Shown piece by piece: positions 15,962 to 29,660 of a stretch of 64,000 nucleotides of DNA (position 1 is its first letter; every line of letters starts with the position of its first letter). The position numbers were made by a program, and so were the translations under genes. Source of the DNA: Zhaonella formicivorans (lineage in GTDB: Bacteria > Bacillota > DUOV01 > Zhaonellaceae); NCBI RefSeq assembly GCF_004353525.1, contig NZ_CP085524.1:434001-498000 (forward strand), given 5' to 3'. Below the pieces are notes generated by a model. The model did no database searches and was not told where the DNA came from. It saw only the letters and a list, made by a program, of their open reading frames with translations.

Positions 15962-16040
15962 TTTGCTGAATTTAAAATAAGGAGGTGAGACGGTGCAGTT
16001 AAACAGCAAACTGAATATGGTGAAAAAGGAGGAGAACTGT

Positions 16041-18206
16041 GTGGTCAAAAAAATATTTTCAGCGCTAATAGTGCTTGCTTTTTTGGCTGGCGTATTTTTC
16101 CTGGTCATCCCTCAAGAAGCCAATGCTTTTGAAAACCTGAGTAAAGATGGGAATTGTACTCCTTGCCACACGGACGGCAGAAAAGCTAAAGCTGCTGCTA
16201 CCGCTAAACCGGCGCCGGCACCTGCTAAAGCAAGCGCAGTTAAGCCAGCTCCTGCTAAAACAGCCCCTGCACCTGTCAAGGTATCCGGCATTAAAGCAGG
16301 CGAATTTGCGGAGATGCTGAAAAAAGCTGGTTTTACCGTTTCCGTTGTTAATGGTGAAGCGGTCTTAACCAGGGAGGCTGCCGCGGAGTTTATGGTCAAG
16401 ACTCTAGGCTTAAAACCCGCAGCAGATACTTCTGTCTTAAAAGCTTTCAAGGATAGCAGTAAAATCGGCTCAACTTACAAAGGTTATGTTGCTGCTGCAG
16501 TAAATGAAAAGTTGCTCTTCGGCTATGGCAACAAGACCTTTGTCCCGCAAGGCGGTGTGGACAAAAAGACAGCTGAGGCGCTGGTTTGGAGAATGATGTC
16601 CAAACAAAAACAAGCAGCCGCGCCTGCTAAACCTGTTGTCAAAGGTTTAAACGTTAAATTAGGTGTAGAAGGCTACGTTGGCTCCGATACATGCGGCAAG
16701 TGTCACGGCGATGCTTATAAATCCTGGAAGGATACTGCCCACAGTAAAATGGGGCAGAAAATCGCTGATGGCTCAGTACTCCAAGAAATTAAATGGGACG
16801 CCCAGTTGAGTACCATCCCTCAGTTTGATTTGAATGGAGTTAAGGTTTCGGGTTTGGGTTATGCTCAGAATACAAAACCCATCTTTACAATAGGAAGTGT
16901 CCATAAGCAGCGTTTTGTTTTTGACACCAATGCCGATGGTGACGCCAGTGTAATCGATGTCAACGACTTGAAGATTATGCCCCAGGAATGGATTCGCCCT
17001 GCCAACGGCCAAGGAGACAAATGGCAAGACTATAGTTCTAAGAAATGGAAAAACTGGAAGGAATGCGCCGGCTGCCATTTCACTGGGGTTAAAGCCGATG
17101 TGAAAGCCAACAAGGTACAAGTAGCCGAATTTAACATCGGCTGTGAAGCTTGTCACGGCCCCGGCAAACAGCACGTAGCTTCCGGCGGGGATAAGACCAA
17201 GATCTATTCCGGAGCCCAGGCTTACTCCTGCGGTGCCTGCCATACCAGAGGTTATAACGATTACACAACCAAGGAGTTTGAGTTTATTCCCAACCTTATG
17301 CCTTGGGATGACCCGGCAAAGGTAGCCGATAAGTATACCCATGCCGGCGAAAATGGCAACGAATTGGATGCTTTCTGGGGTAATGAGCCGGTCAACGGTC
17401 CCTCCAAGAAACACCACCAGCAGTATCTGGATTGGAGACGTTCGGGACATGCTACTATCTTTGAGCGGAACATCCAGCTGCCTAATTTCGGCGATTCCTG
17501 CCTGAAGTGCCACTCTGCAACAGCTTATATAGCTGCAGAGAAGGCTGAAAAGGTCACTCTGGCCGACTTCAAAGCCGGCGGTAAGTTTGAAAATGACCGG
17601 GCCGGCGTCACTTGCGTGGTTTGCCACACTTCCCACGCTACCAAGACTGCCAAGCCAATCGGTTCTGCTAACCTGCGCAAGTCCAGGGAGGAAACCTGTA
17701 CTCAGTGCCACGTTGAGTCTGGCCTGATGTTCAAGGGCGATGTAGCTGCCAAGATGAAAGGCAAGTCAGTGGTGGCTACCAGCATCCCCAGCGACACTAC
17801 CCTTACTTGTGTAGACTGCCATATGCCTAAGGTGGCAAAGAGCGGTGTAGACGGTGACTTAAGCAGTCATATGTTCAGGCCGATCACTAAGGAAGAAGCT
17901 GCTAAGCTAGGTATGCCTGCTACAGCAGTCTATGTTGAACAAGCCGGAGTTGAGAAAAATAGGGAACTTCAGGTTAAAGTTCATGAGTTAGAAGCTAAGC
18001 TTAAAGAAGCTGAAGGAAAATTTGCTGCTTTAGACAAGAATAGTGAGCACTATGCTAAAGCAAAAGAGCTTCTTGACGGCGCCGGTGCAAACTATTGGTA
18101 CCTGCACAAAGATCCGGGAGCCGGTTACCATAACCCGGCCTTTGCCCAAGAGCTGCTGGATAGAGCAAACAGTAACCTGGCTGAGTTTGAAAAGCATATC
18201 CAATAA
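16041..18206 (+). CDS. S-layer-homology, nine-heme c-type cytochrome
   Basis: An exported multiheme cytochrome likely acting in electron transfer at or across the cell wall. A signal peptide (core ALIVLAFLAGVFFLV, cleavage near A-N-A) is followed by one CxxCH, a Pro/Ala/Lys-rich linker and a domain resembling an SLH repeat: LTREAAAEFMVKTLGL, then FKDSSKIGSTYKGYVAAAV, then GYGNKTFVPQG. That repeat would attach it to the cell envelope. Eight further CxxCH motifs follow (CGKCH, CAGCH, CEACH, CGACH, CLKCH, CVVCH, CTQCH, CVDCH). A D-x-N-x-D-G-D segment resembles a calcium loop. The C-terminus is a coiled coil and an NrfA-like helical tail. GTG 16041 has AAAGGAGGAG; GTG 15993, in frame, also has AAGGAGGTGA, giving 16 extra residues. 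Confidence 0.9.
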   Translation: MVKKIFSALIVLAFLAGVFFLVIPQEANAFENLSKDGNCTPCHTDGRKAKAAATAKPAPAPAKASAVKPAPAKTAPAPVKVSGIKAGEFAEMLKKAGFTVSVVNGEAVLTREAAAEFMVKTLGLKPAADTSVLKAFKDSSKIGSTYKGYVAAAVNEKLLFGYGNKTFVPQGGVDKKTAEALVWRMMSKQKQAAAPAKPVVKGLNVKLGVEGYVGSDTCGKCHGDAYKSWKDTAHSKMGQKIADGSVLQEIKWDAQLSTIPQFDLNGVKVSGLGYAQNTKPIFTIGSVHKQRFVFDTNADGDASVIDVNDLKIMPQEWIRPANGQGDKWQDYSSKKWKNWKECAGCHFTGVKADVKANKVQVAEFNIGCEACHGPGKQHVASGGDKTKIYSGAQAYSCGACHTRGYNDYTTKEFEFIPNLMPWDDPAKVADKYTHAGENGNELDAFWGNEPVNGPSKKHHQQYLDWRRSGHATIFERNIQLPNFGDSCLKCHSATAYIAAEKAEKVTLADFKAGGKFENDRAGVTCVVCHTSHATKTAKPIGSANLRKSREETCTQCHVESGLMFKGDVAAKMKGKSVVATSIPSDTTLTCVDCHMPKVAKSGVDGDLSSHMFRPITKEEAAKLGMPATAVYVEQAGVEKNRELQVKVHELEAKLKEAEGKFAALDKNSEHYAKAKELLDGAGANYWYLHKDPGAGYHNPAFAQELLDRANSNLAEFEKHIQ

Positions 18207-18309: not shown

Positions 18310-19737
18310 ATGTCAGCCTTATATGAATTTTTCAGTACAAATCTGTCCGTTGTTTATTTTATATATGGATTGGTTTTTTTTCTGATGGGTTTTGCAATTT
18401 TTCTGCAAAACAGAAGAATGAGCAAGATACCTTTGGCCAAACACCTTTGGCTTTTGGCATGGTTCGGGATTATACATGGTTTATCAGAATGGGGTTTTGT
18501 CTTTATACCTATTCAGGATGAAAAGTTATACGAAAGCTCGGTTATTCTACTACGTTTTATCATTGCCCTTTCTTTCTTTTTTCTTCTGCAATTTGGTATG
18601 AATCTTGTGATAAAGGATTCACTAAAACGGCTAAAATTGCTACCTGCGCTGCTATTTACAGCCTGGTTCGGCGTGTTTTTATTTTATGTCCTGTCTAGCC
18701 ATAATTCAAACAACGAGCATCTACTCTTTTGCGAAACTCTAGCCCGATACTTTTTGGCTTTGCCGGGAGCAATTCTTACCGGTATTGGTTTAATAAAGCA
18801 AAAAGAGCAAGTACAGTTTATGAACGGTCGGTTAGTTAATAACCTGCTGGGGGCGGCTCTGGCGTTTTATATTTATTCTATAGTTGGTGGATTTTTTGTG
18901 CCGGGATACAACTTTTTTCCCGCTAATAAGTTCAATTCAGAGTTTTTTTTTCAGGTAACAGGTATACCAATTGCTGTGTTGCGTACGGCATGCGGTTTGG
19001 TAGGAGCTTATTTTATTATTCGGGTATTAGAAATTTTTGATCAAGAATACAGCATCCGTTTGGAAGCAGCGGAAAAAAACCAAGCTGTTCTGCTTGACCG
19101 GGAAAGAATAGCCCGAGATTTGCATGACGGAATAATTCAGTCCATTTATGCCGTTGGTTTAAATTTAGAGAACACCCGCTACCTTTTGCAGGAAAATCCT
19201 GTTCAGGCAGAACAGGAAATAACGTCTATTATGGAGAAATTGAATAATATTATTGTTGATTTACGCCAATGTATTTTAAATTTGCGCCCTGTACAACTTA
19301 CTGACAGCGAGTTTCAAAAATCGATAATCAGTTTAATTACGGAATTTAAACGAAACACGGGGATTTCTACCGATTTCAGCGTGATTCGTCAAACGGACGC
19401 GCGCCTGCCGCAGGGAAGTTTGAGCCATATTTATTTTATCGTCAACGAGGCCCTGAATAATATTGCCAAGCATGCCAATGCAAATCAAGTTAAAGTACAG
19501 TTTATTTTTAGGCCAGAGTACCTGGAACTCAGTATCAGTGATAATGGCAAAGGGTTTTCCTCTCCCGACAAATTCAAATACGGCAGCCTTGGACAGGGCC
19601 TAACCAATAAGCAGATCGCCCAGCAGATATTTTTAAGTGAAAAAACGGTACGTAATTACGTTAGCAATATCTTGAGCAAGATGGGGTTTAGCAACAGAGC
19701 GCAGGCAGCTGCATATGCAGCCAAAAAAGGAATTTAA
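18310..19737 (+). CDS. Membrane histidine kinase fused to a NarL/LuxR-type HTH, probable collapsed two-component pair
   Basis: Residues 1-250 form about seven membrane helices as a sensor. A HisKA_3 dimerisation domain follows with the phospho-acceptor in [16 protein letters not shown] (His near 272). The ATPase domain shows the N-box [16 protein letters not shown] and the G1 box SDNGKGF. At the next box, GQGL (about residue 427), kinase homology stops. The last 45 residues read [23 protein letters not shown] and [14 protein letters not shown], the DNA-binding end of a NarL-type response regulator. The receiver domain and the kinase end are missing. The simplest reading is an internal deletion joining kinase and regulator at the shared word Q-G-L-T-N. 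It lies 100 bases after the cytochrome gene. Whether it can still phosphorylate is doubtful. Confidence 0.85.
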
Positions 19738-20381: not shown

Positions 20382-20734
20382 TGTTACTACCTCCTACACA
20401 AATTAGTAGATAAATCGTATCTTAATTATCCCATTTGTGAGTTATTTTGCAAATCCCTTTAGCTGAAGATTTCGCCGTATATATTGCCCTAGGCATTATA
20501 GCAGGCTTCTTGCAGGTGATAGCGGAAAAATGCTTTTAATTAAAGCTTGTCTAACCACACTGCTACGGATTGGGTTATTTAGCATTTTTGTACAGCAGGA
20601 TTTTTCAGAAATAAAGCGAATTTAATTATAGTATTAGCCTATGCTCAAGCTACTTCGTGGCTTAAATCGGCAAAGGATATGTTTTTATATGGGGTGAACT
20701 AAATTACACTGATAAGAAAGTGGTAGGAGGAACT
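20382..20734 (+). other. Intergenic region, no clear gene
   Basis: AT-rich spacer carrying upstream signals of both divergent genes. The only open frame of note is a 30-codon hydrophobic one at 20447-20539 (TTG start, poor ribosome site), which may be chance or a relic. Confidence 0.5.
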
Positions 20735-22186
20735 TTGCGGGACATTTTTTTTCTTAGTGATTTGGCAGCAGTAAAGGCTATAGCTGATCCACAACGACTC
20801 AGAATTTTGGAAATTTTTATTCGCCAAAAGGCTACGGTTCAGCAGGTGGCGACCATGCTAGAAGAGACGCCGGCAAAAATTCATTATCATGTAAGGGAAC
20901 TTTTGAAGCATGGCATGATTGAACTTGTTGAAACTGTAGAAAAGAAGGGTATTTTAGAAAAATACTACAGGGCGGTTGCACGTAATTTTTACATTGACCA
21001 GGCTTTAGGTGAATATTTTGAGGATAATGAAGCAGCGGCTTTAGAAGTTGTAACCAAGGATATTTTGTCCTGGCGAAGGCTTAAATTTTTGAAAGTTGAT
21101 ATTAACCGGGTAGCCGATACCTTAGTTAACACTTGTTTAAGGATCCAGCCAGGAGAAGTTGTTTATATTCAGGGCAGTACCGATGAAACGGATTTGGCGG
21201 AGGCGTTATGTTCGCAACTTTATCAGGCTGGTGCCTACCCTCATCTCCATTTAATTTCTCCTGAACTGAAATTACAGTTGCTGCAAAAAACCCCCTTGGA
21301 GCAACTGCCACATAGCCTGAGTTATCTGGCTAACTGGATGGACGAAGTGACAACAATGATCATGCTGGAACATATAGTAGATCCTTTGGAAGTTAAAGAG
21401 GTGGAGCCAAAGCGGGTTGAACTGTTCAGGCAAGCCTGGGCTCAAGTCAGAAATAAAAGGACTGAACGGGGCATCAAATGGGCCTTTGTAGGTTACCCCA
21501 CTGAAAAGCAGGCCCAAGCAATTGGAGTAAATTTTGTTCGCTTTCACGATATTTTTTGGCGAAGTATGGATATAAATTACGAAAAAGTAGGCCTCTTAGG
21601 TCAAAAAGTAGCCCGGTTTTTGGAAAGTGGACAGGAAGTACAGTTAAAATCAAGCAGTGGTACAAGTTTAAAGTTAAATATAGCCGGGCGTAAGAGCTTT
21701 ATAGAAGATGGAATTATAGGTGCTGAAGATATTGCCCAGGGTAAACCGTTTATAAATTTTCCCTGTGGAGAGGTTAGTATAGCTCCCATAGAGACTTCAG
21801 CCCAAGGAACAGCAGTTTGTGATTTTACATATTACAACGGGCAGAGAATTACAGGCATTCTCATGGAATTTGCCGAAGGCCGTTTAGTGAAGCTGCAGGC
21901 TGAGGAAAACGAAGAATTGCTGCGGCAAATTCTTTTGGAAGGAAACGATGACCGCGACCGGATAGGGGAATTGGGAATTGGTTTAAATCCTATAATCGAG
22001 CAGCCTCTAGGGTATCCGGTTTACGACAGTAAGGCTTTTGCCCGTGTGCATCTATCTTTTGGTGAAAACCGCATGTTCGGAGGCAGGAACAAGGCCGCTC
22101 TTAACTGGCCCATGGTTCTTGATAAAGTCGATGTTACAGTGGACGGACGACAGCTGATTCAGGCTGGGAAGTTCGTTTTTAAATGA
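20735..22186 (+). CDS. ArsR-like HTH fused to a degenerate M29 aminopeptidase domain, candidate regulator
   Basis: Two domains. Residues about 5-75 are a winged HTH of the ArsR type (AIADPQRLRILEIF, then AKIHYHVRELLKHGMIELV). From about residue 115 to the end it matches the M29 thermophilic aminopeptidase fold: RIQPGEVVYIQGSTDE, PCGEVSIAPIE, IGELGIGLNP, HLSFGENRMFGG and VDGRQLIQAGKFVFK. The usual C-terminal metal ligands (S-A-V-H-W-D) are replaced by A-A-L-N-W-P, and the Tyr seven residues after the preceding His is Arg, so peptidase activity is doubtful. TTG 20735 has TAGGAGG at the right distance; the longer GTG start at 20720 overlaps it. It sits before oppABCDF, so peptide-responsive control of opp is a fair hypothesis. 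Confidence 0.85.
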   Translation: MRDIFFLSDLAAVKAIADPQRLRILEIFIRQKATVQQVATMLEETPAKIHYHVRELLKHGMIELVETVEKKGILEKYYRAVARNFYIDQALGEYFEDNEAAALEVVTKDILSWRRLKFLKVDINRVADTLVNTCLRIQPGEVVYIQGSTDETDLAEALCSQLYQAGAYPHLHLISPELKLQLLQKTPLEQLPHSLSYLANWMDEVTTMIMLEHIVDPLEVKEVEPKRVELFRQAWAQVRNKRTERGIKWAFVGYPTEKQAQAIGVNFVRFHDIFWRSMDINYEKVGLLGQKVARFLESGQEVQLKSSSGTSLKLNIAGRKSFIEDGIIGAEDIAQGKPFINFPCGEVSIAPIETSAQGTAVCDFTYYNGQRITGILMEFAEGRLVKLQAEENEELLRQILLEGNDDRDRIGELGIGLNPIIEQPLGYPVYDSKAFARVHLSFGENRMFGGRNKAALNWPMVLDKVDVTVDGRQLIQAGKFVFK

Positions 22187-22216
22187 TTTAACGATAAAAT
22201 TTATTTTATCGTTAAA
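22187..22216 (+). promoter_or_regulatory. Perfect 13-bp palindrome between HTH-M29 gene and opp
   Basis: TTTAACGATAAAA (22187-22199) and its exact complement (22204-22216) flank a 4-base centre. There is no T-run after it, so a terminator is less likely than an operator or mRNA hairpin. It could be the binding site of the adjacent HTH protein. Confidence 0.55.
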
Positions 22217-22345
22217 CTAAAATTTATCAGAAGCGAATGACTGCAAGCTTGAACAAGTAGGCAAAGGGGGTGTCTATTGGGGGAATTAATAATTCTGATA
22301 ACAAATATTATGTAGAGAAGAAAAATTTAAGGAGGTTAAAGTTTG

Positions 22346-23974
22346 ATGTGGAGAAACCGTAAAATGTTTGTTGTCCTAGCGGTAGTCTTAATGTTCAGCT
22401 TTGTTCTTACCGCCTGCGGAGGTGGGAATAAAGCAGCCAATGAGGGAAATAAAACAGAAGAGAAAGTCATTACTTACAATCTTGGTACCGAACCTGAAAC
22501 CTTAGACGTTGCTACTGCTACCGGAAAACCGGAAGCTACCGTTCAAATGGCCATGTTTGAAGGTCTGACCCGCTTGGATGCCAATAACCAGCCTGTACCA
22601 GGCATGGCAGAAAAATGGGATATTTCTCCTGACGGATTAGTTTATACCTTTCACTTGCGGGATGCCAAATGGACAAACGGTGATCCGGTAACTGCAGAGG
22701 ATTTCGAATTTGCTTGGAAGCGTTTATTAAATCCCGATACTGCGGCTGAATATTCATACCAGGCATTTTACATTAAAAATGGCGAAAAATACAACGCCGG
22801 TGAAGTTTCCGCTGACGAGGTAGGGGTGAAAGCTTTAGACGCAAAGACATTGCAAGTAACACTGGAAACACCGACTCCTTACTTTCTGAGCTTGACTGCT
22901 TTTCCTAACCTTTATCCTGTTAATAAAAAAGTTGTAGAAGCTAATCCTGACTGGAACACTAAAGTTGAAACTTTAGTCGGGAACGGTCCTTTTAAAATCA
23001 TAAACTGGGAACACCAGCAAAAAATTGAGTTAGTTAAAAACCCGGATTATTGGGCTGCTGATGATGTGAAAATAGATAAAATCATCATGACTATGGTAGA
23101 ATCCGAAGATACGGAGTTAAGTATGTTTGAGTCGGGGCAAATTGATATAGCTGAGAACCCGCCGACCCAGGAAGTTCGCCGTCTGTTAGATGAAAAAATA
23201 GCCACTATGTATCCAGATTTAGGTATTTACTATTATATGTTTAACGTCAAACAGGAGCCTTTTGATGATCCACGGGTGAGAAAAGCTTTTGCTATGGCTA
23301 TTAACCGTCAGGCGATTATTGATAACGTGACCCAGGCTTTCCAAAAGCCGGCCTTTGCAGTAGTACCATACGGCATACCTGATGCGGTACCCGGTGAAGA
23401 CTTCCGTGAAAAAGGCGGCAATAATTATTTCACTGAAGACGTTGCCAAGGCAAAAGAGCTCTTAGCTGAAGCGGGATACCCAGATGGAAAGGGATTACCT
23501 GAAATCAAGATTCTTTATAATACCAATGAAGGTCATCAAAAGATCGCAGAAGCCATCATGGAGATGTGGAAGAAGAACTTGGGTGCCAATGTAACTTTAA
23601 CTAACCAGGAGTGGCAAGTTTACTTGAACACCCGAGCAGCCGGAGATTATCAGGTTGCCCGTGCCGGTTGGGGTGCTGACTATACTGACGCCATGACTTT
23701 CCTGGATATGTGGATGACCGGTAACGGCAACAACCAGACTAACTGGGGCAACCCGGAGTATGACAGGTTGATTAAAGAAGCTAAGTCCAACCCTGACCCG
23801 GCTGTAAGGATTAAAGCAATGCACGATGCTGAAAAAATCCTGATGGATGAAATGCCTATCATGCCGATTTATTTCTATACCAACGTCAATATGTATAAGC
23901 CCTGGGTAAAAGGTGTTATAGTTCCTATGGTTGGCGGTTATCAAGAATTTCGTTGGGCTTATATTGAAAAATAA
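22346..23974 (+). CDS. oppA: Oligopeptide ABC transporter substrate-binding lipoprotein
   Basis: Extracellular peptide-binding component (SBP family 5). A signal peptide ends in the lipobox VLTAC (Cys about residue 25), then a linker. Conserved family elements are EPETLDVATATG, MAEKWDISPDGLVYTFHLR and DPRVRKAFAMAINR. The length of 542 residues is normal. ATG 22346 lies behind AAGGAGG; the codon before it, TTG 22343, is the other option. It is followed by a stem-loop and then oppBCDF. Confidence 0.94.
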   Translation: MWRNRKMFVVLAVVLMFSFVLTACGGGNKAANEGNKTEEKVITYNLGTEPETLDVATATGKPEATVQMAMFEGLTRLDANNQPVPGMAEKWDISPDGLVYTFHLRDAKWTNGDPVTAEDFEFAWKRLLNPDTAAEYSYQAFYIKNGEKYNAGEVSADEVGVKALDAKTLQVTLETPTPYFLSLTAFPNLYPVNKKVVEANPDWNTKVETLVGNGPFKIINWEHQQKIELVKNPDYWAADDVKIDKIIMTMVESEDTELSMFESGQIDIAENPPTQEVRRLLDEKIATMYPDLGIYYYMFNVKQEPFDDPRVRKAFAMAINRQAIIDNVTQAFQKPAFAVVPYGIPDAVPGEDFREKGGNNYFTEDVAKAKELLAEAGYPDGKGLPEIKILYNTNEGHQKIAEAIMEMWKKNLGANVTLTNQEWQVYLNTRAAGDYQVARAGWGADYTDAMTFLDMWMTGNGNNQTNWGNPEYDRLIKEAKSNPDPAVRIKAMHDAEKILMDEMPIMPIYFYTNVNMYKPWVKGVIVPMVGGYQEFRWAYIEK

Positions 23975-24009
23975 GCTATATGCTTAGAAGCCTTAGTTTA
24001 TAATCTTAA

Positions 24010-24048
24010 AAGAGGTATATATGGCGAGATCGGCCATGTATACCTCTT
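24010..24048 (+). other. Intercistronic stem-loop between oppA and oppB
   Basis: A 16-bp stem (24010-24025 with 24033-24048, one G-T pair) without a T-run, placed after the binding-protein gene just as in the pst operon. Likely stabilises the upstream message or attenuates. Confidence 0.6.
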
Positions 24049-24098
24049 GCTGCTTGAAGCCTTAACATGAAATATTTTACAGAAAGGAGGCTATTAAA

Positions 24099-25028
24099 CT
24101 GGTACGATACTTGCTGCGAAGATTTGTAGCCATATTTTTAGCTTTGGTGTTTATTAGTACCTTTACTTTTTTTGGGATGAAAGCCATTCCCGGCGGCCCT
24201 TTTGCTTCAGAAAAAAAGCTACCGCCCAAAGTGGAAGAAAATTTAAATAAGAAATATCATTTAAATGATCCGCTGCTAAAACAGTATAAAGACTATATGT
24301 TTGGTTTGGCTAAAGGAGATCTGGGGCCTTCTTTCAAATATCCCGACCGTACAGTTAACGATATTATCAAAGACGGTTTTCCGGTATCGGCTATTCTGGG
24401 AGCCATATCAGTTTTATTGGCTTTGTCAGTTGGTCTTTCGGCAGGAATAATTTCCGCTTTGAAACAAAATCACTGGCAGGACCACGTAGCTATGATTCTC
24501 GCTACAATTGGTTTTTCGGTCCCAAGTTTTGTGTTGGCTGCTTTATTGCAATTTGTTTTTTCTTACAAACTTAATTGGGTTGTTCCTGCCATGTGGGGCA
24601 CATGGCAGCAAACTATTTTGCCGTCTATTTCCTTGGCAGCACTTCCTTCGGCAACTATTGCCCGTTTAATGCGGTCCAGCATGTTGGAGGTATTGCAGCA
24701 GGACTATATCCGTACTGCCAAAGCCAAAGGATTAAAAGATAGGGTAATTATCTATCGTCATGCTGTCAGAAATGCTGTAATGCCGATTATTACTTATCTC
24801 GGTCCTTTAATTGCAGCGACCTTTACCGGCAGTTTTGTAGTTGAATTTATTTTTGCTATACCAGGGTTAGGCAGGTACTTTGTTACCAGTGTATTCAACC
24901 GCGACTATACTTTAATAATGGGCTTAACGATATTTTATAGTGTTTTTCTGATGGCCATGAACTTGATTGTTGACCTTAGCTACGCCATAATCGACCCAAG
25001 GGTGAAATTAACGGGTGGAAAGGAGTGA
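24099..25028 (+). CDS. oppB: Oligopeptide ABC transporter permease OppB
   Basis: Membrane subunit of the peptide importer with six helices and the EAA loop YIRTAKAKGLKDRVIIYRHA. The only well-placed ribosome site (AAAGGAGG at 24083-24090) points to CTG at 24099, giving the family-typical beginning V-R-Y-L-L-R-R. The next canonical start, TTG 24111, is 20 bases from that site. A rare CTG start is therefore suggested, though not proven. Length 309 residues. Confidence 0.9.
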   Translation: MVRYLLRRFVAIFLALVFISTFTFFGMKAIPGGPFASEKKLPPKVEENLNKKYHLNDPLLKQYKDYMFGLAKGDLGPSFKYPDRTVNDIIKDGFPVSAILGAISVLLALSVGLSAGIISALKQNHWQDHVAMILATIGFSVPSFVLAALLQFVFSYKLNWVVPAMWGTWQQTILPSISLAALPSATIARLMRSSMLEVLQQDYIRTAKAKGLKDRVIIYRHAVRNAVMPIITYLGPLIAATFTGSFVVEFIFAIPGLGRYFVTSVFNRDYTLIMGLTIFYSVFLMAMNLIVDLSYAIIDPRVKLTGGKE

Positions 25029-25035
25029 GCGATGA

Positions 25036-25965
25036 ATGAGTATAAATTTGAATTTATCCTCTGAAATGTTTAAGCCAGTTGATCAAGACAGAAGAGATGC
25101 GGAAATAATTGCTCGCCCCAGCACTACCTACTGGCAGGATGTGTGGAGACGTTTAAAAGCAAACAAAGTAGCTATGGGCAGTTTGTGTTTGATTGGCTTT
25201 TTGGTGATTATGGCTCTTGTTGGACCATACTTAAACGGCTTTTCTTATTCAGACCAAGCTCTGGAACTTAAGAATTTGCCCCCTAATAGTCAATATTGGT
25301 TTGGCAGTGACTCCCTTGGCAGGGACCTTTTTACACGGGTTTGGTTTGGTGCCCGTATGTCTTTAGCCGTAGGTTTTACCATCGCTTTTGTGGTGTTGAT
25401 TATCGGTGTGATCTACGGGGGGATTTCCGGACTGGCAGGCGGTTGGGTTGACGAGATTATGATGCGGATTGTAGAAATCCTCTCAGGTATCCCCTTTGTG
25501 CTGTATGTAATTTTGATTATGGTAATTCTAAATGATAATAATTTTTTTACTATCCTTTTTGCTTTGAGTATTATTTATTGGATTCCTATGGCCAGGCTGG
25601 TACGGGGACAGATTTTATGGTTGAAAGAGCAGGAGTATGTACTGGCGGCTCGCACTTTAGGTGCCAGTCCTTTAAGAATTCTCCTGAAACACCTTATCCC
25701 AAACACGATGGGGCCAATTCTCGTCTATATGACTATGGCTATTCCGGAGGCTATTTTTACGGAAGCTTGGTTAAGCTTTTTAGGGCTGGGTGTTTCAGCT
25801 CCTTTTGCCAGCTGGGGAACTTTGGCCAGTGACGGCGTAAAGGGCTTGCGCTCTTATCCTTGGCAGCTCCTTTTTCCAGCAGTTTTTATTAGTTTGACGA
25901 TTCTAGCATTTAACTTATTTGGTGATGGTCTAAGAGATGCTCTGGACCCGCGCACCCGGAAATAG
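25036..25965 (+). CDS. oppC: Oligopeptide ABC transporter permease OppC
   Basis: Second membrane subunit. It shows the N-terminal cytoplasmic stretch and first helix (ANKVAMGSLCLIGFLVI), the FGSDSLGRDLFTRVWFGARMSL motif characteristic of OppC/DppC, and the EAA loop YVLAARTLGASPLRILLKHL. ATG 25036 lies behind GGAGTGA, seven bases after the oppB stop. Confidence 0.94.
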   Translation: MSINLNLSSEMFKPVDQDRRDAEIIARPSTTYWQDVWRRLKANKVAMGSLCLIGFLVIMALVGPYLNGFSYSDQALELKNLPPNSQYWFGSDSLGRDLFTRVWFGARMSLAVGFTIAFVVLIIGVIYGGISGLAGGWVDEIMMRIVEILSGIPFVLYVILIMVILNDNNFFTILFALSIIYWIPMARLVRGQILWLKEQEYVLAARTLGASPLRILLKHLIPNTMGPILVYMTMAIPEAIFTEAWLSFLGLGVSAPFASWGTLASDGVKGLRSYPWQLLFPAVFISLTILAFNLFGDGLRDALDPRTRK

Positions 25966-25976
25966 GAGGTGTGACG

Positions 25977-26981
25977 GTGAATACGCTATTGGAAGTAAGA
26001 AATTTGGAAGTATCATTTTTTACCCACGCTGGGGAAGTGAAGGCTGTCCGAGGTGCCACTTTTGCTGTGGAAGAAGGGGAAGCAGTAGCCCTAGTGGGAG
26101 AATCGGGTTGCGGCAAAAGTGTGACGGCACAAGCTATTATGGGATTGATTCCCAACCCTCCCGGAAAAGTGGTCAGCGGTTCTATTATCTTTAACAACGA
26201 GAATTTGGTATTGAAAAGTCAACGGGATATGGAAAATATTCGTGGTAAGCAGATTGGCATGATTTTTCAGGACCCCATGACTTCGCTGAACCCTACCATG
26301 ACCGTAGGACGCCAACTGATTGAAGGCATCATTAAACACCAGCGTTTATCAGCTACCGAAGCCATGCTGAAAGCTGTTGAAATGCTAAGGCTCGTAGGGA
26401 TACCGCAACCTGACCGCAGGGTTAAACAATATCCTCATGAGTTCAGCGGCGGGATGCGGCAAAGGGTAATGATTGCCATGGCGTTAGCCTGTGAGCCGCG
26501 CCTTTTAATTGCCGATGAGCCTACAACGGCCCTTGACGTTACTATTCAGGCCCAAATTATAGAGTTAATGAAGAGCTTGAAAGAAAAGATCAGAACTTCC
26601 ATTATATTGATTACTCATGATTTAGGTGTTGTTGCGGGCTTGTGCACCCGGATTTTGGTCATGTATGCGGGCCAGATAGTTGAAGCAGGAGATGTAAGGG
26701 ATATTTTCTACCAGCCTCAACACCCCTATACGTGGAGTTTGCTTAAAGCGGTGCCCCGCCTTGATGCGAAAGAAAAAACCAGACTTGTTTCTATCCCGGG
26801 ACAACCTCCGGACTTAATTCAACCACCCAAGGGCTGTAGCTTTGCTCCCCGGTGCGAGTATGCTATGCAGATTTGCCTGGAGCAGCCTCCCCAGGAAGTG
26901 ATTACCGGCGATAAGCGTCGTGTATCCTGCTGGTTGATTCATACTCACGCTCCCAAAGTTTTGCTGAGAGGGGTGAGGTAA
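25977..26981 (+). CDS. oppD: Oligopeptide ABC transporter ATPase OppD
   Basis: First of two ATPases of the peptide importer. Walker A GESGCGKS, signature [15 protein letters not shown], Walker [15 protein letters not shown] and the C-terminal oligopeptide/dipeptide extension with its cysteines ([14 protein letters not shown]) are all present. GTG 25977 has AGGAGG seven bases upstream; GTG 25971 would touch the ribosome site. Length 334. Confidence 0.95.
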
Positions 26982-26982
26982 G

Positions 26983-27957
26983 ATGTCAGTAATTGAGCCG
27001 CTGGTAGAGGTAACAAATTTAAAAAAATACTTTCCCGTCCGGACAGGCTTCTGGGGCGGAAAAACATTTTTAAAGGCGGTAGACGGGGTTAGCTTCAGCA
27101 TTGGGCGGGGTGAAACTCTAGGGTTAGTTGGTGAAAGCGGCTGCGGCAAAACTACTGTGGGCCGAACCCTAATAGGTCTTTATCAAGCCACAGCAGGGGA
27201 GTTCAAATTTCAGGGCGAAAATGTTTTAAAATACCGCGGGAATAAGCTGCAGGCTTTCCGGCGGCGGGTACAAATGATTTTCCAGGACCCATACGCTTCC
27301 TTAAACCCACGCATGACTGTGGGAGATATAATCGCTGAACCACTGGAAATTCATGGCATTGCCCAAGGTACGGACAAAAATAAAAGAGTGCAGGAACTTT
27401 TAAATATGGTTGGGCTTTTGCCGGAGCATGCTAACCGTTTCCCCCATGAATTCAGCGGCGGCCAAAGACAGCGAGTGGGGATAGCCCGGGCCTTGGCGGT
27501 GGAACCGGAGTTCATCATTTGCGATGAACCGATCTCAGCCCTTGATGTTTCTATTCAAGCCCAGGTAGTTAATATGCTGGAGGATTTACAGGACCAGCTG
27601 GGCTTAACATATCTGTTTATTGCCCATGACCTGTCCATGGTGCGGCACATCAGCGACAGGGTTGCGGTGATGTATCTGGGCAAGATGGTAGAAATCGCAG
27701 CTAGCAGTGATATTTACGAAGAACCCAGGCATCCTTACACTAAAGCTTTGCTTTCAGCTGTACCTATTCCTGATCCTGATTTGGAAGCAGCAAAACAGCG
27801 GATTATCCTGGAAGGGGATGTCCCCAGCCCTTTGAATCCGCCAAGCGGCTGCCGTTTCCGCACACGCTGTTCTTGCGCCAAGGAGATATGTGCCGAAGTT
27901 GAACCTGAGATGAAACAAGTTGGCAATGGCCACCTGGTTGCTTGCCACTTGGCTTGA
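26983..27957 (+). CDS. oppF: Oligopeptide ABC transporter ATPase OppF
   Basis: Second ATPase, partner of OppD. Walker [10 protein letters not shown], signature [15 protein letters not shown], Walker [15 protein letters not shown] and the C-terminal Cys motif ([14 protein letters not shown]). It starts one base after the oppD stop behind GAGGTAAG and ends before a strong bidirectional terminator. Confidence 0.95.
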
Positions 27958-27962
27958 CGACC

Positions 27963-28003
27963 AAAAAGAGAACTGCTCTTCGTTTAAGAGCAGTTCTCTT
28001 TTT
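27963..28003. terminator. Bidirectional terminator between oppF and the minus-strand repeat protein
   Basis: A perfect 18-bp stem (27963-27980 with 27986-28003) with A- and T-runs, overlapping the stop of the convergent gene. Confidence 0.92.
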
Positions 28004-29660
28004 AAGGATTGCTAATTAAACCGTAAGCTATGAGTGCCTGAATTGCTTTCTCGCGATAGTTCCCTTCCGGATACTTATTTAAATAATTTTGGAAAGCCTC
28101 AGCTACAAGCCTCAGCTGTTCTTCCTCGGTCCAGAGCACATTGATTTCTTGCCCGTAATATTCCAGGTGAGCATAGGCTAAAGCAATCGAGAAATCCACT
28201 TTTTCCGCCAAATCAGGGGAGAGGGTGGTCGCAGCCAATTCCTGAAACATTTCTAAAGCCTGGTAATAGTTATTATGCTCTTTCAGGTAGTTTTGCAGTT
28301 CTGCTTTAACCTTTGGCTGTTCCCTAATTTCATTGATATGTCCCAACCAATTGTAATAAATCCTGTTGCCTTGCCACAAATGGTTATAAAAGATGTAGGT
28401 ATCATGGTAAATAAGGGACGCAAGCTGATAGCGCAAGGGAGCCGATTCTTGCGCGTTTTCGATTTCGGCAATTTGTTGGGCATAAGCTGACAGCTCAGTT
28501 ATTTTCGCCTGCTGCTCCTTAACTTTAGACCAAAAGTCCCAGCTGTTTTGGGTCTCGGAAAGCCCGGTAGGTTCAGCAACTTTGTTCAGCACAAAAATAT
28601 CCTGGTTGTCATATTGCTTGATAAATGCCTGGAACTGTCGCACCGCATTCTGGTATTGACCGGCACGGGCCAGTTTTACAGCCAGGGAGTATTCCAGCAC
28701 TGGCTTTAATTCCGCTTTGAGTTTAGTGGAGGCCAGGGCTGCTTTTAAAGCTTCAACGTCCATTTTTACATCTATTACGTACAACAAACGCCCCTGGGCA
28801 TCGTAAGCAATAGCCCCGTTAGGGGAATTAATGGCTGTAAAAAACCAGTTAAGAGCTTGGATATAATCACCTGTGATTTCATAGGAACGTCCCAGCCGGT
28901 AAGCCGCACTGTCTGTAGCTAAATGACCGGGGTATTTTTGCAGCCAATCAAGCCACCCGGGTATTTCTTTGCCGGGGTTATACTGCCCGTCGCCGTAATT
29001 CCGTGCAAATCTCTTGGCATCGATGTCGAAAAAGGGCTGGCCGCTGATTTTTTCATAAGCCCTGATTCCTTTTGCGGTAATACTTTGCGGATATTCCTTG
29101 TAAATTTGTCTGGAAATTTCCCAAGGCAGGGCCACGTATTTGCCGTCAGGGTAAGCAGCTAACGTAAATTGTTCCAGATGTCCGGCTAAAGCTTTTAGAG
29201 CCTCTTTTTCTCCTGCCTGGACCAAAGCAATCAAAGCGTCTTGGGCTAAAGGAAGATTGCTGCTTTTTGACAATTCCCTAAAAAAGCTTGCAAGCTCTGT
29301 TTTGTTATGCTGCCCGAAAAAGAGTTTGTTCTTTAGTTGGTATAAAACGGCTCTTTTAAGCTTCCACTGGTCAACCTGCTTAAAAATTTCGATTAACAAA
29401 GAACCATCATCATTTATTAATTCAGGGCTGAATAAAAGCTCATTAATTTCCTGTTCTGTGGTAGCAGCTTGGAGTCCCTTTACGAGTTCATCAAGTGCGA
29501 TATACTCCGGGTTAGCAGATGTCTTATGTCCAACCTTACTGGCAGCTCCTGCCGTTAAGGGATGGAGGGCTAACAAGTTGAAAGAAACAATAACAAGAAA
29601 AGCTGCAGTTACAAAAACAGCGAGGGGCCAATATTTTTTAGTCCTTTTAGGTTGTTCCAA
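28002..29660 (-). CDS. Exported or membrane-anchored TPR-like repeat protein, function unknown
   Basis: 552 residues with an N-terminal basic segment and one hydrophobic helix (about 12-32), then an almost wholly helical body. Several stretches resemble TPR units (AAYRLGRSYEITGDYIQALNW near 250; LAVKLARAGQYQNAVRQFQAF near 330; a final NYLNKYPEGNYREKAIQALI), suggesting protein binding outside the membrane. I recognise no specific family. The TTG start has GAGGTGAT upstream on the minus strand. It stands alone, convergent with opp. Confidence 0.75.
   Translation of the reverse strand: MEQPKRTKKYWPLAVFVTAAFLVIVSFNLLALHPLTAGAASKVGHKTSANPEYIALDELVKGLQAATTEQEINELLFSPELINDDGSLLIEIFKQVDQWKLKRAVLYQLKNKLFFGQHNKTELASFFRELSKSSNLPLAQDALIALVQAGEKEALKALAGHLEQFTLAAYPDGKYVALPWEISRQIYKEYPQSITAKGIRAYEKISGQPFFDIDAKRFARNYGDGQYNPGKEIPGWLDWLQKYPGHLATDSAAYRLGRSYEITGDYIQALNWFFTAINSPNGAIAYDAQGRLLYVIDVKMDVEALKAALASTKLKAELKPVLEYSLAVKLARAGQYQNAVRQFQAFIKQYDNQDIFVLNKVAEPTGLSETQNSWDFWSKVKEQQAKITELSAYAQQIAEIENAQESAPLRYQLASLIYHDTYIFYNHLWQGNRIYYNWLGHINEIREQPKVKAELQNYLKEHNNYYQALEMFQELAATTLSPDLAEKVDFSIALAYAHLEYYGQEINVLWTEEEQLRLVAEAFQNYLNKYPEGNYREKAIQALIAYGLISNP

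Follow-up and report, generated by a model that had tools for sequence, protein, structure and literature searches.

A winged helix-turn-helix protein with a degenerate M29 aminopeptidase domain, a candidate regulator of the adjacent oppABCDF genes in Zhaonella formicivorans

Six residues of LmAmpII are each individually essential by mutation, and their equivalents in the aminopeptidase AmpS are E253, E319, H348, Y355, H381 and D383 (PMC7023490). The M29 fold has also been re-used: CgnE is an M29-derived, metal-free protein of a peptide-binding family, and the paper on the crocagin proteins CgnE and CgnB mentions no extra domains in their homologues (PMC10070186). The route from enzyme domain to effector domain of a transcription factor is represented by BzdR, in which a helix-turn-helix (HTH) is joined to a shikimate-kinase-like effector domain whose ligand is benzoyl-CoA (PMC3602430). 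Enzyme-derived effectors are already known, and we found no description of an HTH-M29 or other M29-derived regulator, or of an M29-derived effector domain on a transcription factor, in the open-access literature. Here, we describe a gene in a stretch of 64,000 nucleotides of the Z. formicivorans genome (the window) whose product combines the two kinds of domain and which lies directly upstream of an oligopeptide importer operon.

Architecture and metal site of the fusion protein

The gene and the parts of its product are located in the window as follows.

20725..20730, + strand: ribosome-binding site AGGAGG of the fusion gene, read from the sequence, ten bases 5′ of the TTG
20735..22186, + strand: HTH-M29 fusion regulator gene, 483 aa, with TTG start at 20735 and stop at 22184-22186
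20756..20995, + strand: winged HTH domain, PH1932/ArsR-like, residues 8-87, with residues 46-58 as recognition helix
21017..21088, + strand: linker helix, residues 95-118, from the secondary structure of the AlphaFold model
21095..22183, + strand: M29 aminopeptidase-fold domain with incomplete metal site, residues 121-483, from Pfam, the model and structure matches

An ArsR-like HTH joined to an M29 domain had been proposed in the first-pass annotation, and Pfam, structure prediction and structural matches all bear this out. Pfam places HTH_20 at residues 16-65 (E 2.5e-8) and likewise HTH_5, both above cut-off, followed by Peptidase_M29 (PF02073) at residues 122-444 (E 1.9e-33, 116.4 bits versus a cut-off of 27). 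The AlphaFold model, based on eight sequences (mean pLDDT 86.9, pTM 0.75), contains two domains with a helix between them and a low-confidence stretch at residues 89-96. By Foldseek and VIA-align, residues 110-483 of the model match AmpT, PepS and AmpS (VIA Z 30-33) and then NicX (Z 27), and the N-terminal part matches PH1932 (VIA Z 11.6) and ArsR proteins (Z about 11); the kinship of the HTH with PH1932 is also found by sequence (phmmer E 1.7e-10). Compared with its relative in genome G048 (68%), the window gene differs at 0.60 of third codon positions versus 0.14 of second positions in the M29 half (approximately fourfold) and at 0.60 versus 0.09 in the HTH half (approximately sevenfold). 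This excess at third positions shows that both halves have been maintained, and since the M29 half is under purifying selection much like the HTH half, it must have a use.

The window domain and stand-alone M29s were combined into a profile, whose alignment to Staphylococcus aureus AmpS (1zjc) served to map the ligand positions. The profile alignment to AmpS, AmpT and PepS covers the first four positions, that to AmpS ending before H381/D383, and the last two positions (His and Asp) were mapped via stand-alone M29s and NicX.

21770..21772, + strand: E346, equivalent to AmpS E253, kept (profile alignment)
21968..21970, + strand: E412, equivalent to AmpS E319, the bridging ligand, kept; Val in G123 (profile alignment)
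22049..22051, + strand: H439, equivalent to AmpS H348, kept; Asn in G123 (profile alignment)
22070..22072, + strand: R446, at or beside the AmpS Y355 column, Tyr lost; Arg in G048 and Lys in G123
22103..22105, + strand: N457, equivalent to AmpS H381, lost (alignment with stand-alone M29s and NicX)
22109..22111, + strand: P459, equivalent to AmpS D383, lost (alignment with stand-alone M29s and NicX)

The six-position mapping that had been suggested thus leaves E346, E412 and H439 in place, whose equivalents coordinate metal 1 in AmpS (PMC7023490), and three positions lost. The signature of the window protein is EEHRNP versus EEHYHD of M29 aminopeptidases: three of the five metal ligands are kept, neither of those specific to metal 2 among them, and the catalytic Tyr is gone. 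The original reading of the H-x-D pair as N-x-P and of the Tyr as Arg is confirmed at N457, P459 and R446, the Tyr column being approximate owing to a one-residue gap in the alignment. There is no shifted H-x-D in the window protein, and intact ligands at shifted positions were rejected, since H439 is the sole His after residue 425. Judged by its defining residues, the protein is not an M29 aminopeptidase; that its M29 domain is catalytically dead, as had been supposed, is well supported, with all sequence criteria agreeing and the whole fusion family lacking the site. Because three of the five ligands are kept, residual metal binding is possible.

Distribution and origin of the fusion family

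A genome-wide search for HTH-M29 fusions and their neighbours, also proposed at the outset, was carried out by protein and profile searches of 398 genomes of the phylum, to which relatives and four classes were added for a total of about 465 genomes, other phyla being sampled through one DNA-pattern scan; as the sampling of genomes is partial, the family may be larger. Eight full-length fusions were identified in seven of the approximately 465 genomes: the window genome, G048, G123, G170 (two copies), G331, G053 and G310. Scans for further fusions in the classes of G000, G048, G123 and G310 gave none, and a plasmid search yielded no full-length fusion. In three genomes of different families (the window genome, G048 and G123) oppABCDF lies directly downstream of the fusion, whereas the other five fusions (both copies of G170, G331, G053 and G310) adjoin an MFS_1/MFS_3 transporter gene. 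Given this majority of MFS-linked members, the HTH-M29 fusion is not specific to opp.

Loss of the metal site extends to every member. In the order EEHYHD, the signatures are EEHRNP in the window protein and G048, EVNKMP in G123 (a relative of the window protein at 45%), EAT-SR and EAT-AR in the two G170 copies, QQGSY- in G331, VAQSWS in G053 and KSTTPF in G310. The H-x-D pair is lost in all eight, and three of them (G331, G053 and G310) retain none of the five metal ligands; the column alignment is less certain for the most diverged fusions, and still no H-x-D occurs near those columns. The model of the G310 protein, with no ligand kept, still matches AmpT and PepS. Among stand-alone M29s outside the fusion clade, E, E, H, H and D are kept in 26/26 and the Tyr varies in 4/26. 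Two stand-alone relatives are degenerate as well (G352, KEYRRE; G214, REYRSQ). No HTH was seen near the stand-alone M29-like genes with these two degenerate sites (L034 and L035, in L055 and L056); the gene diverging from them resembles, on visual inspection, one for a B12-dependent ribonucleotide reductase.

A branch supported at 100 in the M29 tree sets the eight fusions and the two degenerate stand-alone proteins apart from the other sequences, and one supported at 99 in the HTH tree does so for the fusions and an HTH-only protein of G008; both are quick trees in which the MFS-linked group has long branches. The G008 protein is a 99-aa HTH-only ORF (L057:8511-8810) and is probably a remnant that has lost the M29 half. 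The opp-linked fusions form their own branch. These topologies fit a single origin of the fusion. Four loci of Ktedonobacteraceae (L062, L066, L068 and L098) carry, in a row, genes for an HTH-only regulator, an MFS transporter and a stand-alone M29, and the M29s of the first three keep their metal ligands. As a source of the fused domain, the M29s beside the HTH-MFS pairs of L062, L066 and L068 were rejected, since they group with ordinary intact M29s.

When a collection covering 84,980 species was scanned with the HTH motif, 38 further regulators emerged that have the same HTH and no M29 domain, in hosts including Clostridium, Lutispora, Paenibacillus, Bacillus and Ktedonobacteria. The window HTH shares 34-55% identity with these HTH-only members over the HTH, and the fusions form one group beside them. 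Most of the HTH-only genes have an MFS gene directly downstream, as read from neighbouring ORFs, with Pfam applied to two neighbours.

Predicted operator and neighbouring genes

The region behind the fusion gene holds a palindrome and then, in the same orientation as the fusion gene, the opp genes at 22343-27957.

22187..22216, no strand assigned: predicted operator palindrome TTTAACGATAAAATTTATTTTATCGTTAAA, with the footprint core at 22190-22213
22343..23974, + strand: oppA, oligopeptide-binding lipoprotein (SBP_bac_5)
24111..25028, + strand: oppB permease
25036..25965, + strand: oppC permease
25971..26981, + strand: oppD ATPase
26983..27957, + strand: oppF ATPase

The palindrome, which lies between the fusion gene and oppA, consists of two perfectly inverted 14-bp arms separated by 2 nt. 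A 24-bp palindromic motif (consensus atCgATCAAATatATTTGATcGat) was trained solely on the promoters of the 38 HTH-only genes, with the window outside the training set. In 34 of the 38 HTH-only loci, the top-scoring site of the entire locus is found no more than 120 bp ahead of the regulator gene (mostly 36-65 bp before the start codon), a placement that is partly circular as the motif was trained on those promoters. Applied to the window, the motif ranks 22190-22213 first in the 64 kb with 25.2 bits, the next non-overlapping site having 10.6; in 60 first-order Markov sequences of 64 kb used as the null, the maxima averaged 10.4 and the highest was 21.0. When the motif was retrained on 20 Chloroflexota-clade loci alone, the window site scored 23.4 versus 8.2. 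The 20-bp core CGATAAAATTTATTTTATCG occurs identically upstream of the regulator genes of Clostridium tunisiense and C. punense, and it is the single exact match of its pattern in the 3.3-Mb genome of Z. formicivorans. The site lies at +4 after the fusion stop in both the window and G048 (20.5 bits there); G123 has a weaker site of 13.4 bits behind the fusion gene and one of 16.1 bits 119 bp upstream of it. HTH kinship and an operator beside opp, the two sequence tests of the family with the operator CGATmAAA-N4-TTTkATCG, were both found for the window HTH. This independent footprint test upholds the suggestion that 22187-22216 is the site of the regulator, as the predicted operator of its family.

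At the MFS-linked fusions, the HTH-only motif did not rise above background in G331 (10.2 bits) and G310 (6.5), and it gave no site upstream of the fusion genes in G170 and G053. Their palindromes are a variant with ACGTCAAA arms, and G310 and G331 each have a palindrome of the type ACGTCAAA-N6-TTTGACGT ahead of the MFS gene, its exact match being unique in both genomes. A looser pattern gave many two-mismatch matches in related genomes, in several of which they were no more numerous than in controls; the exact matches in G310 and G331 alone are informative. As read from the sequence, the G310 palindrome overlaps a promoter-like pair, TTGACG-17-TATGAT, and two sites in G331 flank a promoter-like TTGACA-16-TATAAA; beside the window operator, we could not clearly assign a promoter for oppA.

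Several other features of the neighbourhood were observed. Between oppA and oppB there is a strong hairpin (24010-24048, + strand; -27.6 kcal/mol, z -4.9), which possibly sets a higher level of oppA. Downstream of opp, a 552-aa ORF (28002-29660, - strand) matches nothing in Pfam at E 0.001. Upstream of the fusion gene, the ORF at 18310-19737 (+ strand) encodes a histidine kinase (HisKA_3, with HATPase_c partly covered) followed by a GerE LuxR-type DNA-binding domain without a receiver and looks like an in-frame kinase-regulator fusion, and the ORF at 15993-18206 (+ strand) encodes a multihaem cytochrome that carries an S-layer homology domain (SLH, residues 152-191), possibly an electron-transfer protein anchored in the cell wall.

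Proposed function and comparison with known systems

The reading that we consider best, and on balance probable, is a one-component protein that regulates the neighbouring oppABCDF and in which a dead M29 aminopeptidase, as effector domain, senses a peptide or peptide-like ligand. In the proposed mechanism, the N-terminal winged HTH would bind the palindrome at 22187-22216, a step strongly supported by the footprint, presumably as a dimer in keeping with established biology. It would thereby control opp, as its position in three genomes suggests; the earlier idea of control over the adjacent importer gains from the conserved linkage and the predicted operator, which point to a protein aimed at the opp promoter region. 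From sequence, a dedicated and local role at opp is well supported for the window protein, and loss of catalysis by the M29 half is strongly supported. This half would then serve as an effector-binding, and probably also dimerising, domain whose old substrate cleft is probably occupied by a peptide or peptide-like ligand imported by opp, and the ligand would change the geometry of the HTH dimer and alter operator occupancy. Repression rather than activation seems rather likely, because the G310 and G331 sites overlap or flank promoter-like hexamers and the HTH-only sites lie shortly before the start codon. A peptide as ligand has slightly better than even chances in our estimate, because the domain is peptidase-derived, has a precedent in CgnE and, in three genomes, is encoded next to a peptide importer. 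As five of the eight fusions lie beside an MFS gene, the ligand may, however, not be a nutrient peptide but an amphiphile or a drug-like molecule.

The latter consideration leads to the most serious alternative, which we nevertheless regard as unlikely: an opp regulator whose M29-derived domain binds a non-peptide such as an antibiotic, an amphiphile or a modified metabolite, control of opp being a secondary re-use. The MFS_1/MFS_3 genes beside those five fusions and most HTH-only relatives favour it, as does NicX, an M29 fold that takes a non-peptide substrate; on the other hand, the opp-linked members form a branch of their own, with a peptide importer alongside in each of three genomes, and the default substrate of the fold is a peptide N-terminus (AmpS, PepS and AmpT). 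Considerably less probable is a metal sensor in which E346, E412 and H439 hold one ion whose occupancy switches DNA binding as in ArsR/SmtB. The three metal-1 residues (PMC7023490) are indeed kept in the window protein and G048, but two of the three are Val and Asn in the opp-linked G123 and none remains in G331, G053 and G310; moreover, the HTH half contains no Cys and the regulated genes are not metal genes.

The palindrome could also merely terminate transcription of the fusion gene or form a hairpin in its RNA, with the HTH acting elsewhere. As RNA it does fold to -10.7 kcal/mol (z -4.7), but no T-run follows the hairpin, the site is absent from the terminator-like matches, its 20-bp core recurs upstream of regulator genes in the two Clostridium species and the site still ranks first when the motif comes from a distant clade, all of which makes this reading very improbable. 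Least credible of all is a bifunctional protein that combines DNA binding with an active hydrolase of altered chemistry: the three ligands kept and the different metal chemistry of the M29-fold protein NicX speak for it, whereas both metal-2-specific ligands and the Tyr are gone, a single change at any of the six residues abolished LmAmpII activity (PMC7023490), and the losses vary among family members, as expected if catalysis is not selected.

Beyond the single locus, the preferred reading of a peptide-sensing opp regulator may extend to a new class of sensor domain for transcription factors, in which a dead M29 reads intracellular peptides directly and controls their importer and which arose by one fusion to an MFS regulator that was later re-aimed at opp; we hold this broader view tentatively, at a little short of even chances. 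Should the ligand prove to be a peptide, the intracellular peptide level would be linked directly to opp expression in these bacteria. A series is available that comprises intact stand-alone peptidases, fusions with three, one and no metal ligands, and relatives that share the operator but lack M29, and the turning of a peptidase into a sensor should therefore be traceable by experiment.

Compared with AmpS, AmpT and PepS (PF02073), the window protein shares the fold over the whole domain and keeps three of the five metal ligands, but it lacks the H-x-D pair and the Tyr and has gained an HTH, and three fusions keep none of the five ligands. CgnE and CgnB (6zsu and 6zsv) have an M29-derived fold that matches at VIA Z 12.7-13.4 over about 260 residues, far below the aminopeptidase matches; the fold is re-used for peptide binding there, as it may be in the window protein, and CgnE has likewise lost the metal site, but these proteins are shorter, have no HTH and act in the biosynthesis of peptide natural products. 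With PH1932-type and ArsR-like regulators (1uly and 2cwe) the HTH is shared in fold and sequence, whereas PH1932 has no M29 domain. The winged HTH fold of ArsR/SmtB proteins is present, but residues 1-118 contain no Cys for a Cys-based metal site and the score against NCBIfam HTH_metalloreg is below cut-off (29.8 bits versus 55); on these grounds, membership of the ArsR metalloregulators is not established for the window protein. The HTH-only MFS-linked regulators share the HTH family and the operator motif, but they have other C-terminal parts without M29 and, by position, would regulate the MFS gene and themselves. BzdR, finally, took the same route from an enzyme domain to the effector of a transcription factor, with a different enzyme, HTH class and ligand.
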